Origin: an uncultured Alphaproteobacteria bacterium
GTDB lineage: Bacteria > Pseudomonadota > Alphaproteobacteria > Geminicoccales > Geminicoccaceae
Length of the DNA stretch: 64,000 nucleotides
Assembly (NCBI GenBank): GCA_937926445.1
Contig: CALBAK010000002.1
Location: forward strand, 124,001 to 188,000
Reading direction: 5' to 3'
The notes below the pieces were generated by a model. It was not told where the DNA came from, made no database searches, and was given only the letters and a program-made list of their open reading frames with translations. The translations under genes and the position numbers were made by a program. Positions 29,309 through 35,621 of the stretch are shown in pieces (positions within the stretch are counted from its first letter, which is position 1; each line of letters begins with the position of its first letter).

Positions 29309-29361
29309 CGGTGGTGGGCGCACAAGGACTCGAACCTTGGACCCGCTGATTAAGAGTCAGC
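29309..29361. repeat. att repeat, displaced tRNA-Lys 3' fragment (left end)
   Basis: Perfect copy of 35543-35595. It contains the minus-strand 3' half of tRNA-Lys, including CCA, T arm and anticodon loop (29312-29361), but beyond 29361 the sequence no longer matches the tRNA. Identity ends at 29308 on the other side, with a short imperfect continuation. This is the duplicated core made by site-specific integration; it is not a working tRNA. Confidence 0.92.
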
Positions 29362-29476
29362 GCCCGGCACCTTTCACGAGCGCTCGTGCACAATCGCGAC
29401 TGGTCACAAACCCTTGCCGTGGCCTCGCTACTCGCTGTACCCTCTGATTAGGAAACAGCGGGAATGGTCGCGAATG

Positions 29477-29498
29477 TGTGCACGTGATGTGCACGCGG
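29477..29498 (+). repeat. Putative integrase arm-type site, left
   Basis: Contains GTGCACGTGATGTGCAC, that is two GTGCAC hexamers 11 bases apart. The same 22-base block with one mismatch lies at 35457-35478 near the other end, in the same orientation. A further GTGCAC occurs at 29386. Position just inside the att core and before the integrase start suggests arm-type sites for integrase or its excision factor. Confidence 0.5.
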
Positions 29499-29514: not shown

Positions 29515-30783
29515 ATGACGAAAGGAACTATCTCTCCCGAGAAGCCTGCGGTCCGGCTCGACCAGCGCGCCGCCCGGTCGCTCCCGGGCCCGGGCGACGG
29601 CAAGGGCGACGTGCTCTACCCCGACCTCGAGCTGCCCGCGCTCAACCTGCGCGTGTTCGCCTCGGGTCATCGCTCCTGGATCGTCCGCTATCGGGTCGGG
29701 CCGCGCCAGCGCGCCGTCACCCTGGGCTCGGTCGCTGAGCTCTCGGCCGGCGAGGCCCGCCGGCGCGCCAGGGAGATCCTCGCCCAGGTCCGCCTCGGCC
29801 GCGACCCGGCCGCCGAGAAGGCCAAGGCCCGCGAGGCCGCCGCCGCCACCTTCGGCGCCATCGCCGAGGCCTTCCTCGAGGAGCGCGCGGCCGAGCTGCG
29901 GCCCGCCACGCTGCGCGAGTATCGCCGGCATCTGCAGATCTACCTCGCCCCCTGGCGCCCCCTGCCCGCGGTCGAGCTCGACCGGGCGACGATCGCCCGC
30001 CGGCTCGCCGCGCTGGCGAAGGCGAGCGGCGCCGTCACCGCCGCCCGCACGCACGCGACCCTGTCGGCCCTGTTCTCCTGGGCGATCCGCCGCGGGCTCC
30101 TCGAGCTCGATGCCAACCCCGCCGCGCTCGCCTGGAAGCCCGAGCCGCCGCCGGCCCGCGACCGCGTGCTCTCCCTCGAGGAGCTCGCGGCGATCTGGCG
30201 CGCGACCGACCCGGCGAGCGACTTCGGCGCGATCGTCCGCCTGCTCGTGCTGACGGGTTGCCGGCGCGAGGAAGCGGGCGGGATGACCTGGGCCGAGCTC
30301 GACCTCGAGCGCGGCGCCTGGCTCCTGCCCGCGACCCGCACCAAGAACCGCCGGCCGCACCTGGTTCCGTTGAGCCCGCCCGCGCGCGCGCTCCTCGAGC
30401 AACGGCCGCGCCGCTACGGCCGCCCCTTCGTCTTCGGCACCGGCGCGAACGGTTTCGTCGGCTGGTCGCACGCGAAGGCCCGGCTCGACGCGGCGCTCCC
30501 CGAGGCCCTCGGCCGGCCGATCGCGCCGTGGCGGCTGCACGATCTGCGCCGCTCGGTCGTCACCGGCCTCGCCGAGCACGGGCTCGCCCCGCCGCACATC
30601 GTCGAGGCGATCGTCAACCACGCGAGCGGACACAAGGCCGGGGTCGCCGGGGTCTACAACCGCGCGGCCTACGAGCCCGAGAAGCGCAGCGCGCTCGACC
30701 GCTGGGCCGCGCTCCTGCTCGAGGCGGCCGGCGAGGCCCTCCCCGAGGCGAAGGTGGTCGCCCTCGCCGGAGCCCGCCCGTGA
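29515..30783 (+). CDS. int: Tyrosine site-specific integrase
   Basis: 422 residues. The N-terminal arm-binding/DUF4102-like domain has VLYPDLELPALNLRVFASG and KSWI/RSWIVRYR-type motifs, followed by a SAM-like core-binding domain and the catalytic domain. Catalytic residues are Arg250 (TGCRREEAGG), Lys277 (RTKNRRPH), His342 and Arg345 (HDLRR), His369 (NHASGH) and the nucleophile Tyr381 (VYNRAAYEP). This is the P4/CP4-57 subgroup that typically targets tRNA genes. It starts 154 bases from the left att repeat with GAGG five bases before the ATG. Its stop overlaps a GTG of the next frame. Confidence 0.95.
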   Translation: MTKGTISPEKPAVRLDQRAARSLPGPGDGKGDVLYPDLELPALNLRVFASGHRSWIVRYRVGPRQRAVTLGSVAELSAGEARRRAREILAQVRLGRDPAAEKAKAREAAAATFGAIAEAFLEERAAELRPATLREYRRHLQIYLAPWRPLPAVELDRATIARRLAALAKASGAVTAARTHATLSALFSWAIRRGLLELDANPAALAWKPEPPPARDRVLSLEELAAIWRATDPASDFGAIVRLLVLTGCRREEAGGMTWAELDLERGAWLLPATRTKNRRPHLVPLSPPARALLEQRPRRYGRPFVFGTGANGFVGWSHAKARLDAALPEALGRPIAPWRLHDLRRSVVTGLAEHGLAPPHIVEAIVNHASGHKAGVAGVYNRAAYEPEKRSALDRWAALLLEAAGEALPEAKVVALAGARP

Positions 30784-31631
30784 GCCGCCGCCGCGAGGCC
30801 GAGCGGCCCGGCGAGAAGAAGGCGCGCCCCGAGAAGGAGCCCCCGCCCGGCCGTCTCGCCCGCCGCGGGCCGCATCTGGTCGACGGGCGCGGCATGTCAC
30901 CGGAAGGGTTCGTTATTTTGGACCAGCTGCTGAGTTCGCCAGAGGCGAAGGCCGACCTGCGCGCGCGGCACCCGTTCCTTCTCGGCCTCAAACTATTGGA
31001 TGGAACGCTAGGAGCCGAAGAAGCAGCCGCGCTCGCGTACCGTTATCTGCGCAAGGCCGAGGCGGAATTCGACGATCTCATGAAGCGAGCAAACGAACAA
31101 ACGGCGTTCGGGGAGCCCCCGATCAACGAAGTCGCGCTCGGCACGGAGGGTCGCCTCACCATGGAGCTCGCCAAGCCGTTGCTCGTGAGACTTCCGCCCG
31201 AGGCCTGCGTGGTCGCCGCGCTGGCGTTGCGGGCCGGGATCGATATCGGCCGGCTGCACGAGGCCGAGTTGCAGGCCACAGAGATCGTCGCCGGCGACAA
31301 GGTGCGGCGAGGCGCCGAGCAAGGTGGATTGGAGGCGCGCGGGAAGGGGCGGAAAGGTCGCAAATCGGACGTTCGCTCGCTGCCCACGGAGGAACGCATC
31401 CGCGTCTGGCGAGAGGAGCTCGCGGAGCTGCGACTAGAGAACGGCTCCCTGCCGCACGGCGCGATCTCGCACGTCGCCCGACGTCTCGCGAAGCAGCAAG
31501 CGAGGCAGCAAGAATGTGCCAGTGAGGAGAGCTTGAGACACCTCACCGAGGCGGAGCGTATCTTCTTCAACCGCTATCGGGACAAGATCCTCGGGCCCGA
31601 GCCGAGCAGAGCCCTCAGCGAGAAATTGTAA
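30780..31631 (+). CDS. Unknown protein of the element
   Basis: I do not recognise this 283-residue protein. The GTG at 30780 overlaps the integrase stop (GTGA); ATG 30894 is an alternative start giving 245 residues. The first 35 residues are very basic and Pro-rich. The middle (residues 40-190) is helical with leucine-rich segments such as PFLLGLKLLDGTLGAEEAAALAYRYL. The C-terminal third is Arg/Lys/Gln-rich, with GKGRKGRK and a possible helix-turn-helix before HLTEAERIFFNRYRDKIL. From about 30900 to 31640 the DNA is clearly less GC-rich and the codons less biased than in neighbouring genes, so this gene has a different or more recent origin. A DNA- or RNA-binding role is only a guess. Confidence 0.75.
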   Translation: MSRRREAERPGEKKARPEKEPPPGRLARRGPHLVDGRGMSPEGFVILDQLLSSPEAKADLRARHPFLLGLKLLDGTLGAEEAAALAYRYLRKAEAEFDDLMKRANEQTAFGEPPINEVALGTEGRLTMELAKPLLVRLPPEACVVAALALRAGIDIGRLHEAELQATEIVAGDKVRRGAEQGGLEARGKGRKGRKSDVRSLPTEERIRVWREELAELRLENGSLPHGAISHVARRLAKQQARQQECASEESLRHLTEAERIFFNRYRDKILGPEPSRALSEKL

Positions 31632-31698: not shown

Positions 31699-31917
31699 AT
31701 GCCAGATTTCTCGGTCCCCGATCGCCTCGCCGATGACGCGGTAGTCGACTACGTCACCGCGGCTCGCGTCGCCGGGCTCTCGCTCTGCACGTTGCGCCGC
31801 TTGGTCGCCCGCGGCGAGGGTCCGCCGGTCGTGCGCCTGTCGCCCCGCCGCGTAGGCGTTCGGGCGTGCGATCTGCGCGCCTGGCTCGCGGCGCGCACCG
31901 CGCGGCCCGCCGCCTGA
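31699..31917 (+). CDS. AlpA-like helix-turn-helix regulator / excisionase
   Basis: 72 residues. The helix-turn-helix is carried by VDYVTAARVAGLSLCTLRRLVARGEGPP, with a beta-hairpin/wing (PVVRLSPRRVGVRACDLRAWLAAR). This is the MerR/AlpA-like excisionase fold that in phages and satellites regulates int or directs excision. The ATG has a GTGGAG ribosome site at 7 bases. It is flanked upstream by an inverted repeat (31626-31652) and downstream by a strong hairpin, as expected for a control gene separating the integration and replication modules. Confidence 0.8.
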   Translation: MPDFSVPDRLADDAVVDYVTAARVAGLSLCTLRRLVARGEGPPVVRLSPRRVGVRACDLRAWLAARTARPAA

Positions 31918-31969: not shown

Positions 31970-32887
31970 ATGATAGCGCTGTTCGATCCCGGCCGCGAGG
32001 CCCTCGCCGGGCTCGCGGTCGCCCGCCGGCCGGGCGAGCATCGCCTCGCCTGCCCGCGCTGCGCCGAGAGCAAGCCGCGCCGGCGCGATGATGCGCTCGC
32101 GCTCAGGGTCGAGCCGGACGGCGGCCTGGTCTGGATCTGTCACCGCTGCGGCTGGAAGGGTGCCCGGCCCGCGGATCGCCCCGCCGAGGCCGGAGCGCGG
32201 TCCGCTACCTTCCCACGGGCTCGGGCCGCGAGCCGCCCGGCGCCCGCCGCGCGCCTGGAGGAAGCGCTCGCCCGCTGGCGTCGCGCCCGGCCGATCGAAC
32301 GCGGCACGGTCGCCTGGCGCTACCTCGAGGGCGCCCGCGGGCTGCCGATCGCGGCGATCGCCGACCGCCTCGCCGAGGGCGATCTCCGCTGGTCGCCCGA
32401 GGAAGCGCACCCGTGCGGCTTCCGCGGCCCGGCGCTCCTGGCGCTGGTCACCGATGCCGTCGACGCGGCGCCCATGACCGTGCACCGCACCTGGCTCGCC
32501 CAGGACGGCGCGGCCAAGGCGCCTATCGAGCGGCCGCGTCTGCTCTGGCCGGGTCTCGGCAAGCGCGGCGGCTGCGTGCGGCTGTTCGCGGATGCCGAGG
32601 TCGGCCTCGCGCTCGGCCTCGCCGAGGGGATCGAGACCGCCCTCGCCCTCGCCCTCGCCGTTCCGGTGCCGAGCTGGTCCGTGCTCGATGCGGCGAACCT
32701 CGCCGCGTTCCCCGTGCTCGCGGGCGTCGAGACGCTCTGGATCGCCGCCGACCACGATCCGGCCGGGCTCGCCGCCGCCGCGAGCGTGCGCGCCCGCTGG
32801 CACGCTGCCGGCCGCGAGGTCCTGACGGTGCGCCCGCGCACTGCGGGAGCCGACCTCGCCGATCTCGCTTCTGGAGAGATGCCATGA
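31970..32887 (+). CDS. Zinc-finger / Toprim domain primase
   Basis: 305 residues. The N-terminal zinc ribbon has Cys28-x2-Cys31 and Cys57-x2-Cys60 (CPRC, CHRC), as in DnaG and P4-type primases. The C-terminal Toprim domain has Glu219 in AEGIETALA and Asp261/Asp263 in AADHDPAG. The middle (about 95-200) resembles the Toprim-associated region of mobile-element primases. It probably primes replication of the element. The ATGA overlap with the helicase gene couples the two, so they likely form one replication complex. Confidence 0.88.
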   Translation: MIALFDPGREALAGLAVARRPGEHRLACPRCAESKPRRRDDALALRVEPDGGLVWICHRCGWKGARPADRPAEAGARSATFPRARAASRPAPAARLEEALARWRRARPIERGTVAWRYLEGARGLPIAAIADRLAEGDLRWSPEEAHPCGFRGPALLALVTDAVDAAPMTVHRTWLAQDGAAKAPIERPRLLWPGLGKRGGCVRLFADAEVGLALGLAEGIETALALALAVPVPSWSVLDAANLAAFPVLAGVETLWIAADHDPAGLAAAASVRARWHAAGREVLTVRPRTAGADLADLASGEMP

Positions 32888-34866
32888 CTGTCTTGGCAGG
32901 GCTTCCGCCCGAGCTGCGCGACAAGCTTGTGGTCGAGCACGATCCGCCCTGGCCGCCGGCCGAGCCCGCCCGGGCCGCGGCCGCGGACAAGGTCTCGGTC
33001 CACGAAGCGGTCGCCGAGCTGCTCGGGCCGCGTTGGCGGATCGTCGAGGCCGAGGCCGACGGCACCCGCTGGCTCGCGGTCGAGGCGCGCGACGGTGGCG
33101 CGCCGAGGCTCGCCCATCCGACGGGCCGGGCGGCACTGGCCTATGCGCGGCGCATCATCCGCTCGCTCGGGCAGCGCGTGCCGAGGGACGATACCCTGGC
33201 GGCAGCCCTCGAACTCCTGCGCGACCTCGCCGAGGACGAACGGTTGCCGCGCCTCGCGGTCGGGATCCGGACGGTGCGCGATCGGGCCCGAGGCGTGGTG
33301 GCGATCGATCTCGCCGACGGATCCGGCCGGGCGATCGTCGTCTCGCCCGAGGGATGGCGCCTCGCGAGCGAGCTGCCGGACGGCCTCGGGCTGCGCAGCG
33401 CGAGCACGCTGCGCCCTCTTCCCGAGCCCGTTCGCGGCGCGGCCGGCGCGCTCGCCCGCTACCTCGAGCGATGCTGCCGCGTGCCCGAGGCGATGCGCGA
33501 CGTGCTCGCCGGCTGGCTCGCCGGCGCGGCCGTCAATCTGCACCCGCTGCCGCTGCTCTTTCTCTACGGGCCACCCGGCGCGGCGAAGACCACCACCATG
33601 GAGATGCTGCGGCGGTTGATCGATCCGTCGCACCCGCCGCACGCGAGCCTGCCGCACGACGCCCGCGACCTCGCCTCGGCCGTGCAGCATCGCTACGTGC
33701 TCGCGTTCGACAACGTCGGATCGATCTCGGCCGAGGCGAGCGATCATCTCTGCCGCATCGTCACCGGCGCCGGGTTCGAGGCGCGGCGGCTCTACACCGA
33801 TGACGAGCTGCATGCGGTCGGCGGTGCCCGGCCGATCATGATGACGGCGGTGGGCGAGGCGCTCGCGCGCCCCGATCTGCGCGACCGCGGGATCATGGTC
33901 GAGCTCGCGCCGATCGGAGACGGGGAACGGCTCGATCGCGCCGAGGTCGAGGCCGAGGCCGAGGCGCTCGCGCCGGCCGCTCTCGGCGAGCTGCTCGACA
34001 TCGCCGCCCTAGGCCTCGGGCGCTGGAACGCGGTCGAGCGCCCGCCCGAGGGCTACGGCCGCATGGCCGACTTCGAGCGCTGGCTCATCGCCTGCGAGCT
34101 CGCGGAGGCGCGCCGCGCCTATCGCGAGCTGCGGGCCGAGATGAGCGCGGCCGAGCTCGACAATTCGCCCGTGGCATCGGCCCTGCTCGACTTCCTCGGC
34201 AAGGCGCCGGACCGCCGCTGGCGCGGCACCTGGAAGGAGCTCCTGGCCGAGCTCGACCGCTGCCGCGGCGAGGTTCGCCCGCCGCGCGGCTGGCCGGAGA
34301 CGGCCCGCAGCCTCGCATCAGCGGTCCGCTACCACCGCGCCGCGCTCGAACGCGCGGGCGTCACGATCGGGCACGCGCGCCGCGCCGCCGACAAGGCGCA
34401 CGTGGTCGTGCTCGCCCGACCGCGCCCCGGAGCATCTACCACTTCTGCCACTTCTGCCACTACGCCCGATAACCCTTGTGTCTCAATGGGTTATGGGGTG
34501 GCAGATGGGGTGGCAGATAGGTCTGGCGATCTGCCACCATCCGCCACCACGGTCCGGGGTGGCAGATCTCCCACCACTATCTGCCACCCTATCTGCCACC
34601 ACCAAGTCATTGATTCATCGTGGAAATCCGGCTCAGTGGCAGAAGTGGCAGAAGTGGTAGATGCTCCGGGGGAACATCCGGGCGATCCGATCCGCGCCGA
34701 GCGCCTCGCGCTCGCGGCCCGAGCCCTCGACCGGGCGCTGGCGCTGTTCCCCGAGGCCGTCGGCCGCGAGCCGCGCCATCGCGAGCTGTGGGAGCTGGCC
34801 TGCCGTCGCGAGCTCGACCGCATCCGCGCCAAGTTCGAGGCGCGCGCCCGCGAGGTTCCGGCATGA
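32884..34866 (+). CDS. P-loop replication helicase of the element
   Basis: 660 residues. Residues 1-200 are an N-terminal region of unknown fold. The ATPase core has Walker A GPPGAAKTT (Lys235), a Walker B-like LAFDNVG (Asp276) and a sensor IMMTAVG, typical of SF3/AAA-like helicases of plasmids and phages. The core continues to about residue 500. Residues about 514-596 are a Ser/Thr/Ala/Val-rich low-complexity linker coded by the repeat array at 34425-34671. A helical tail, basic towards its end, follows (ALDRALALFPEAVG, REPRHRELWELACRREL). The ATG overlaps the primase stop and its own stop overlaps the next gene by ATGA. Confidence 0.85.
   Translation: MTVLAGLPPELRDKLVVEHDPPWPPAEPARAAAADKVSVHEAVAELLGPRWRIVEAEADGTRWLAVEARDGGAPRLAHPTGRAALAYARRIIRSLGQRVPRDDTLAAALELLRDLAEDERLPRLAVGIRTVRDRARGVVAIDLADGSGRAIVVSPEGWRLASELPDGLGLRSASTLRPLPEPVRGAAGALARYLERCCRVPEAMRDVLAGWLAGAAVNLHPLPLLFLYGPPGAAKTTTMEMLRRLIDPSHPPHASLPHDARDLASAVQHRYVLAFDNVGSISAEASDHLCRIVTGAGFEARRLYTDDELHAVGGARPIMMTAVGEALARPDLRDRGIMVELAPIGDGERLDRAEVEAEAEALAPAALGELLDIAALGLGRWNAVERPPEGYGRMADFERWLIACELAEARRAYRELRAEMSAAELDNSPVASALLDFLGKAPDRRWRGTWKELLAELDRCRGEVRPPRGWPETARSLASAVRYHRAALERAGVTIGHARRAADKAHVVVLARPRPGASTTSATSATTPDNPCVSMGYGVADGVADRSGDLPPSATTVRGGRSPTTICHPICHHQVIDSSWKSGSVAEVAEVVDAPGEHPGDPIRAERLALAARALDRALALFPEAVGREPRHRELWELACRRELDRIRAKFEARAREVPA
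34425..34671. repeat. Iteron-like array inside a 37-bp perfect inverted repeat
   Basis: The outer arms 34425-34461 and 34635-34671 are exact reverse complements over 37 bases and each holds the 9-base step CTTCTGCCA twice. Between them GGGGTGGCAGAT occurs at 34495, 34507 (head to tail) and 34556, and ATCTGCCACC at 34529, 34579 and 34591. The core 34497-34520 is the reverse complement of 34577-34600 with one mismatch. A 7-bp hairpin (ATAACCC/GGGTTAT) and a less GC-rich stretch are included. It resembles an iteron replication origin lying within the coding sequence of the helicase. Confidence 0.85.
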
Positions 34867-35090
34867 TCACCGTCACGGAAGAGCCCGGCCCGGTGCTTCG
34901 GGTCTGGGTCGCGGGCGAGCTCCTGGCCGAGGTCCGCTTGTCGCCCAGCCGCGCCCTCGCCCTGGCCGAGGCATTGATCGCCGCGGCGCGACGCAGCGCG
35001 CTCGACGAACCATGGGCTTCCCGGCCGCCGGCCGGGTCCTTCCTCGATGGGGCCGGTATTGCTGCCCTAGACGGCGCGCCACCTCGCTAG
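34863..35090 (+). CDS. Small protein of the element (75 residues)
   Basis: Not recognised. It starts at an ATG overlapping the helicase stop. The N-terminal half forms beta strands (MITVTEEPGPVLRVWVAGEL), then one helix (LSPSRALALAEALIAAARRSAL) and a loose Pro/Gly-rich end. No signal peptide. Translational coupling to the helicase suggests a replication accessory or copy-control role, by position only. Confidence 0.6.
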   Translation: MITVTEEPGPVLRVWVAGELLAEVRLSPSRALALAEALIAAARRSALDEPWASRPPAGSFLDGAGIAALDGAPPR

Positions 35091-35133: not shown

Positions 35134-35403
35134 ATGCAGGGTATGAGCGAGCGCCAGTACGCCGCCCATGCCGGTCTATCTCGGGGCGCGATCCAGAAGG
35201 CCAAGCGCTCGGGCCGGCTCGTGCTCTTCGCCGACGGGAGCATCGATCCCGAGGCGTCCGATCGACGCCTGCGGGCGACAACAAATCTTGGCCGCAGCTT
35301 CGCGGCGCGGATGCGGCACCGAACGTCGCGGGCGCCGACTCTGACCCTGGACGAGACCGAGGCGTTGTTCGCGCGGCTGAATGCCCTGTTCGGCTCGCGC
35401 TGA
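35134..35403 (+). CDS. Small HTH protein, terminase-small-subunit-like N-terminus
   Basis: 89 residues. The N-terminal half has the pattern ERQYAAHAGLSRGAIQKAKRSG, then LFADGSIDPEASDRRL. This resembles the Nu1-like DNA-binding domain of phage small terminase subunits and related small phage proteins. The C-terminus has a helix TLDETEALFARLNALFG. The ATG at 35134 has GGAGGAG 6 bases upstream; ATG 35143 is an alternative. It is the last gene before the right att site, the place where PICI satellites often carry a packaging gene. Similarity is judged by eye only. Confidence 0.65.
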   Translation: MQGMSERQYAAHAGLSRGAIQKAKRSGRLVLFADGSIDPEASDRRLRATTNLGRSFAARMRHRTSRAPTLTLDETEALFARLNALFGSR

Positions 35404-35456: not shown

Positions 35457-35478
35457 TGTGCACGTGACGTGCACGCGG
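35457..35478 (+). repeat. Putative integrase arm-type site, right
   Basis: Contains GTGCACGTGACGTGCAC, matching the left-end block at 29477-29498 with one mismatch, same orientation, hexamers again 11 bases apart. Another GTGCAC lies at 35490. Situated 65-86 bases inside the right att repeat. Confidence 0.5.

Positions 35479-35542: not shown

Positions 35543-35621
<79 letters not shown>

Follow-up and report, generated by a model that had tools for sequence, protein, structure and literature searches.

A 247-bp iteron array nested inside a helicase gene is very probably the replication origin of a small integrated element and would be read by the winged helix of that same helicase. The array (34425-34671) lies in a window of 64,000 nucleotides, the whole stretch of DNA that was analysed, and comprises 12 copies of the word GTGGYAGA, six per strand. 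The array itself, the predicted fold of the helicase, the fixed position of such arrays among homologues (about 150 loci were compared) and the plasmid homologues together make it very probable that the element carries an origin bound by its own Rep helicase, similar to SaPIs and PICIs.

The outermost parts of the array are two arms (left 34425-34461, right 34635-34671), which form an inverted repeat with exact complementarity over 37 bp and none beyond. Each arm harbors three iterons at a pitch of 9 bp, reading TCTRCCAC in the left and GTGGYAGA in the right arm. The inner iterons (34496-34601), three copies of GGGGTGGCAGAT and three of ATCTGCCACC, are mostly spaced by 12 bp and occur in all three codon phases. 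Two inverted iteron sets flank less GC-rich gaps, one of them located between outer and inner iterons and including an ATAACCC/GGGTTAT hairpin (34462-34494), the other (34601-34634) being a candidate melting site. The lowest-GC 40-mers of the array are found at about 34588-34630 (45% GC), and with about 45-48% GC in the gaps versus 73% in the genome, the AT-rich character of this candidate site is modest. The array as a whole has a GC content of 58.7% compared to 73.1% in the window. A first-pass annotation of this DNA had already described the perfect 37-bp inverted repeat, the three GGGGTGGCAGAT and three inverted ATCTGCCACC copies, the hairpin, the less GC-rich segment and a reading frame running through without a stop. 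All of these features were recovered, and the arms add six copies of the same word. Absent from that description were the 6.2-kb host element and the nested arrangement, in which the whole 247 bp represent one near-palindrome that folds as a single strand into a nearly continuous hairpin (fold z about -17.8). The identity of the two arms reaches past the iterons, which suggests that they have been homogenised.

Just one further copy of GTGGYAGA occurs in the 64-kb window. When the same peptide was recoded synonymously 300 times, the best 8-mer count was 2.7 on average and five at most (10 in the actual sequence); for the longest inverted repeat, the mean was 10.8 and the maximum 24 (37 in the actual sequence). 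Since both the word count and the inverted repeat lie far outside these recodings, the array is not a chance product. Furthermore, the iteron word is read in three codon phases within one protein, as SAT/VAD/VAE, LPP and ICH/GGR.

The gene that contains the array (32884-34866, + strand) encodes a putative initiator (Rep) helicase of 660 amino acids. No Pfam or NCBIfam model scored above its cut-off for this protein, and sequence profiles of Pfam, NCBIfam and the PDB gave P-loop matches only. An AlphaFold model made with 73 relatives shows an AAA+ core modelled confidently, a winged helix (residues 429-511; pLDDT over 90, with a fitting pattern of helices and strands), a disordered linker (519-582) and C-terminal helices (600-657). 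The winged-helix codons (34168-34416), encoding the presumed iteron reader, directly precede the array, and the array-encoded residues 519-582 have a pLDDT under 50, followed by the helical tail. The best match among solved folds is the SaPI5 Rep/primase-helicase (7ola; Foldseek E-value 3.1e-9), with an alignment to chain 7ola_C of Z 18.9 over 372 residues (model residues 33-505), and the poxvirus helicases D5/E5 come next. The protein is thus predicted to adopt an AAA+/SF3-like fold with a C-terminal winged helix. As its reading frame continues through the putative origin, the origin DNA would also be translated, namely into the disordered linker, which should tolerate any reading of this DNA.

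The helicase gene belongs to an element of 6.2 kb that is integrated in a tRNA-Lys gene and has all its genes oriented rightward (+ strand). It starts with attL (29309-29361), an exact 53-bp copy of the 3′ part of the tRNA-Lys, and ends with attR (35543-35595), likewise an exact 53-bp copy, which lies within the intact tRNA-Lys gene (35546-35621, - strand). The attL remnant at 29312-29385 was itself called as tRNA-Lys by ARAGORN; its match to the intact gene stops at 29361, so that it is probably a degenerate copy. A 22-bp sequence, TGTGCACGTGAYGTGCACGCGG, is present just inside both element ends (29477-29498 and 35457-35478; 21 of 22 positions identical) and possibly represents integrase arm sites or repressor sites. 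The genes upstream of the helicase encode a tyrosine integrase (29515-30783; Arm-DNA-bind_3 and Phage_integrase domains), a protein of 245 amino acids with no assigned function (30894-31631), an AlpA/excisionase-like HTH protein (31699-31917; phrog_66, E-value 3.6e-6, a weak assignment) and a Toprim primase (31970-32887; DUF7146 and Toprim_3, phrog_510). Downstream, an ORF of 75 amino acids overlaps the helicase stop codon (34863-35090) and is followed by a gene for an HTH protein of 89 amino acids that resembles the N-terminus of terminase small subunits (35134-35403; phrog_57, E-value 3.1e-9). This resemblance would be in keeping with a phage satellite, although of a TerS-like protein the HTH part alone is present. 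The 6.2 kb contain no recognisable capsid gene. In four sister species of the same genus, a single tRNA-Lys gene lies beside the flanking DNA with no element at this site, and the helicase gene was found in none of the five sister species examined.

Bacterial elements, viral contigs and plasmids contain homologues of the helicase, and so do two archaeal loci. The first-pass annotation had proposed a comparison of homologous genes as a check, and this was carried out with 154 loci from genomes, viral contigs and plasmids, mostly 26-38% identical. An array was called if an 8-mer word occurred at least four times in 350 bp at the helicase 3′ end, which was the case for 42% of these 3′ regions compared with 1.6% of background regions of equal size taken from other parts of these loci. 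The majority of the loci lack such an array behind the helicase, and many of those without one belong to a single viral cluster (L107-L155), whose members mostly show no detectable array there. Among the 63 dense arrays, 34 are located inside the ORF, 12 straddle the stop codon and 17 lie entirely downstream of it. With a conserved residue close to the winged-helix end as anchor, the median distance to the array start is 97, 86 and 108 nt for these three groups (96 nt in the window), in a scan that begins just behind the matched domain, thus favouring nearby positions, and reaches 350 bp past the stop. The stop codon, on the other hand, follows the same anchor after a median of 344, 164 and 84 nt. 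A search of whole loci for clustered 8-mers, blind to genes, agrees with the positional scan on the places of the arrays and located the densest cluster of many loci at the 3′ end of the helicase gene. In members with such an array, the putative origin therefore appears to keep a constant distance from the winged-helix codons on their 3′ side and the stop codon to move; the linker peptide is variable and may be missing altogether.

The commonest spacing is 9 bp both in coding (64 of 114) and in noncoding arrays (30 of 59), which assigns this pitch to the binding protein rather than to codons. Most arrays contain both iteron orientations, and the family shares the word core A-N-CGTC-[AC]-[GC]-C-A, from which the window word TCTGCCACC diverges. 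The word count of 25 of the 34 arrays inside ORFs exceeds that of all 200 synonymous recodings. Position, pitch and inverted layout are thus conserved independently of coding, and an array found at one place whether it is translated or not is a real DNA signal and no protein quirk. Translation of the putative origin looks optional, a by-product of repeats that contain no stop in the frame used. Covariation between iteron letters and winged-helix residues showed no excess over other protein columns in about 50 sequences from different subfamilies, and a conserved AT-rich core was not found among the arrays, which share only the weak hexamers TTGAAA, GAAATC and CATTGA. When viral contigs were scanned for the word of the window itself, spaced at 9 bp, four contigs were returned, none with a helicase homologue and three with low-complexity proteins. 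As for the archaeal loci, a Nitrososphaeraceae contig (L084, 6001-7146) has a ATCGTTCG array at the gene end, and the main array of a 12-kb Methanothrix plasmid (L159, 1608-4982) is located upstream of the gene.

The plasmid homologues include those of the Streptomyces plasmids pFP11 and pSTS2, two plasmids of 23-26 kb, a linear plasmid of 51 kb and a Chlorohelix plasmid, all with 9-13 copies of GCGTCACC, TGCGTCCC or AGCGTCAC behind the helicase gene. No such array was detected in the plasmid homologues L158, L160, L161 and L192. The RepA protein of pFP11, a theta-type replicon, binds in vitro to the iterons of this plasmid (PMC3583192). The homologue of the window helicase on pFP11 is likely this RepA. 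It is followed by an array of nine copies with a CGTC-type core; unlike that of the window, this array is noncoding and starts downstream, 556 nt past the stop codon.

Other functions of the array were considered. It could serve as a parS-like partition site, a packaging site or an accessory site for another protein of the element such as the TerS-like HTH protein, whose gene lies 460 bp downstream, and in some Streptomyces plasmids parA adjoins the array. We regard this as improbable, because in bacteria as well as archaea the array keeps its fixed distance to the helicase winged helix, the window element has no recognisable ParA, and the solved fold that the helicase resembles most belongs to an iteron-binding Rep. 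There is equally little to be expected from a cis-regulatory role, be it as an RNA hairpin affecting attenuation, termination or mRNA stability, or as an operator through which rep is autoregulated. The window segment folds extremely well and the inverted arrangement is common in the family, but the median fold z of the homologue arrays is only about -5 and several of them do not fold, whereas tandem 9-bp words are general, as for a protein binding duplex DNA, and the location 3′ of the gene is ill-suited for an operator. No other array of the family is as palindromic as that of the window (fold z about -17.6 versus a median near -5). Both groups of alternatives become less likely as the array position tracks the winged helix. 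Finally, a protein-level repeat, in which the linker amino acids are selected and the DNA just follows their codons, would explain the open frame and the 9-bp pitch of three codons (SATSAT, VAEVAE), but was rejected as highly implausible given the reading of one word in three codon phases of a single protein (SAT, LPP, ICH; VAD, GGR), the failure of synonymous recodings to reproduce the array and the 17 homologue arrays entirely past the stop.

If the array is the origin of the element, replication may proceed as follows. The SaPI5-Rep-like AAA+ helicase would bind the iterons through its C-terminal winged helix and probably form a pair of opposed hexamers at the inverted outer iteron sets. 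It could then melt the less GC-rich gaps and load itself, and after excision of the element the Toprim primase, encoded just upstream, would prime synthesis.

For the family as a whole, we consider it rather likely that these helicases, for which no Pfam cut-off is passed, represent an unnamed family of initiators in which many members have their cognate origin attached at a constant place after the codons of the winged helix, translated or not. If so, the iterons evolve under a double code, with the stop codon drifting around a fixed origin. The combination of an origin inside the initiator gene, a Rep helicase with adjacent iterons and such a drifting stop in an unnamed helicase family was not found in the literature searched, which left most subscription journals outside. 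The resulting sequence rule, that inverted repeats of 9-bp pitch just behind the winged helix of these helicases predict origins, would be applicable to many unannotated satellites, phages and plasmids. In addition, the family provides a natural set of about 60 pairs of initiator and iterons for deriving a recognition code. As the origin position would be fixed, with an open frame across it in some members and not in others, peptides of low-complexity appearance such as SATSAT, VADVAD or DGADGAD can be misread DNA signals.

Different replication systems share parts of this organisation. Origins inside the initiator gene are also known from some plasmids. The alpha protein of the satellite P4 is an initiator helicase with a C-terminal origin-binding winged helix acting on ori/crr. 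In alpha the primase is fused, whereas the window element has a separate Toprim primase gene. In SCCmec, the helicase Cch2, like the window helicase the product of a mobile element, binds repeats that lie behind the gene encoding it (PMC7581432). These are only three iterons, which are noncoding, and the integration system is a different one. The first-pass annotation had interpreted the repeats as an origin inside the helicase gene and called this arrangement unusual. The homologue arrays and the SaPI5 Rep fold support the interpretation; the location is not unprecedented, since iterons inside the coding sequence of the initiator are classical for lambda O (PMC7466680). In both cases the iterons lie in the open frame of the initiator, in a part not expected to touch DNA. 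In contrast to the window protein, which is a putative initiator of helicase-type AAA+ fold, O is no helicase but recruits a separate one, and its iterons are located mid-gene, whereas the window array is inverted, palindromic and close to the end of the helicase gene.

The closest counterparts are SaPIs and PICIs such as those with SaPI5 Rep and EcCICFT073, for which a Rep helicase with adjacent iterons is classical. The C-terminal domain of SaPI Rep recognises iterons directly downstream of its gene (PMC7581432), and the rep-ori region of a PICI drives plasmid replication (PMC6092414). Differences concern the putative origin of the window, which forms part of the translated rep reading frame, the small size of the element (6.2 kb) and a sequence identity of only about 12-14% between SaPI5 Rep and the window helicase. 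PICIs of the Gram-negative type are induced by a phage and packaged into phage particles, for which the TerS-like HTH protein of the window element is at most a lead. As in these PICIs, the window element combines an integrase and attachment site with an AlpA-like gene (weakly assigned) and then primase, Rep helicase and putative ori in this order and in one direction. The SaPI-type Rep is matched by the predicted AAA+/SF3-like fold, to which the above Z score refers, with its C-terminal winged helix. It is also matched by the iteron sets, which surround less GC-rich DNA directly behind the codons of the winged helix, just as ori in these islands lies at the very 3′ end of rep (PMC6092414, PMC7581432).
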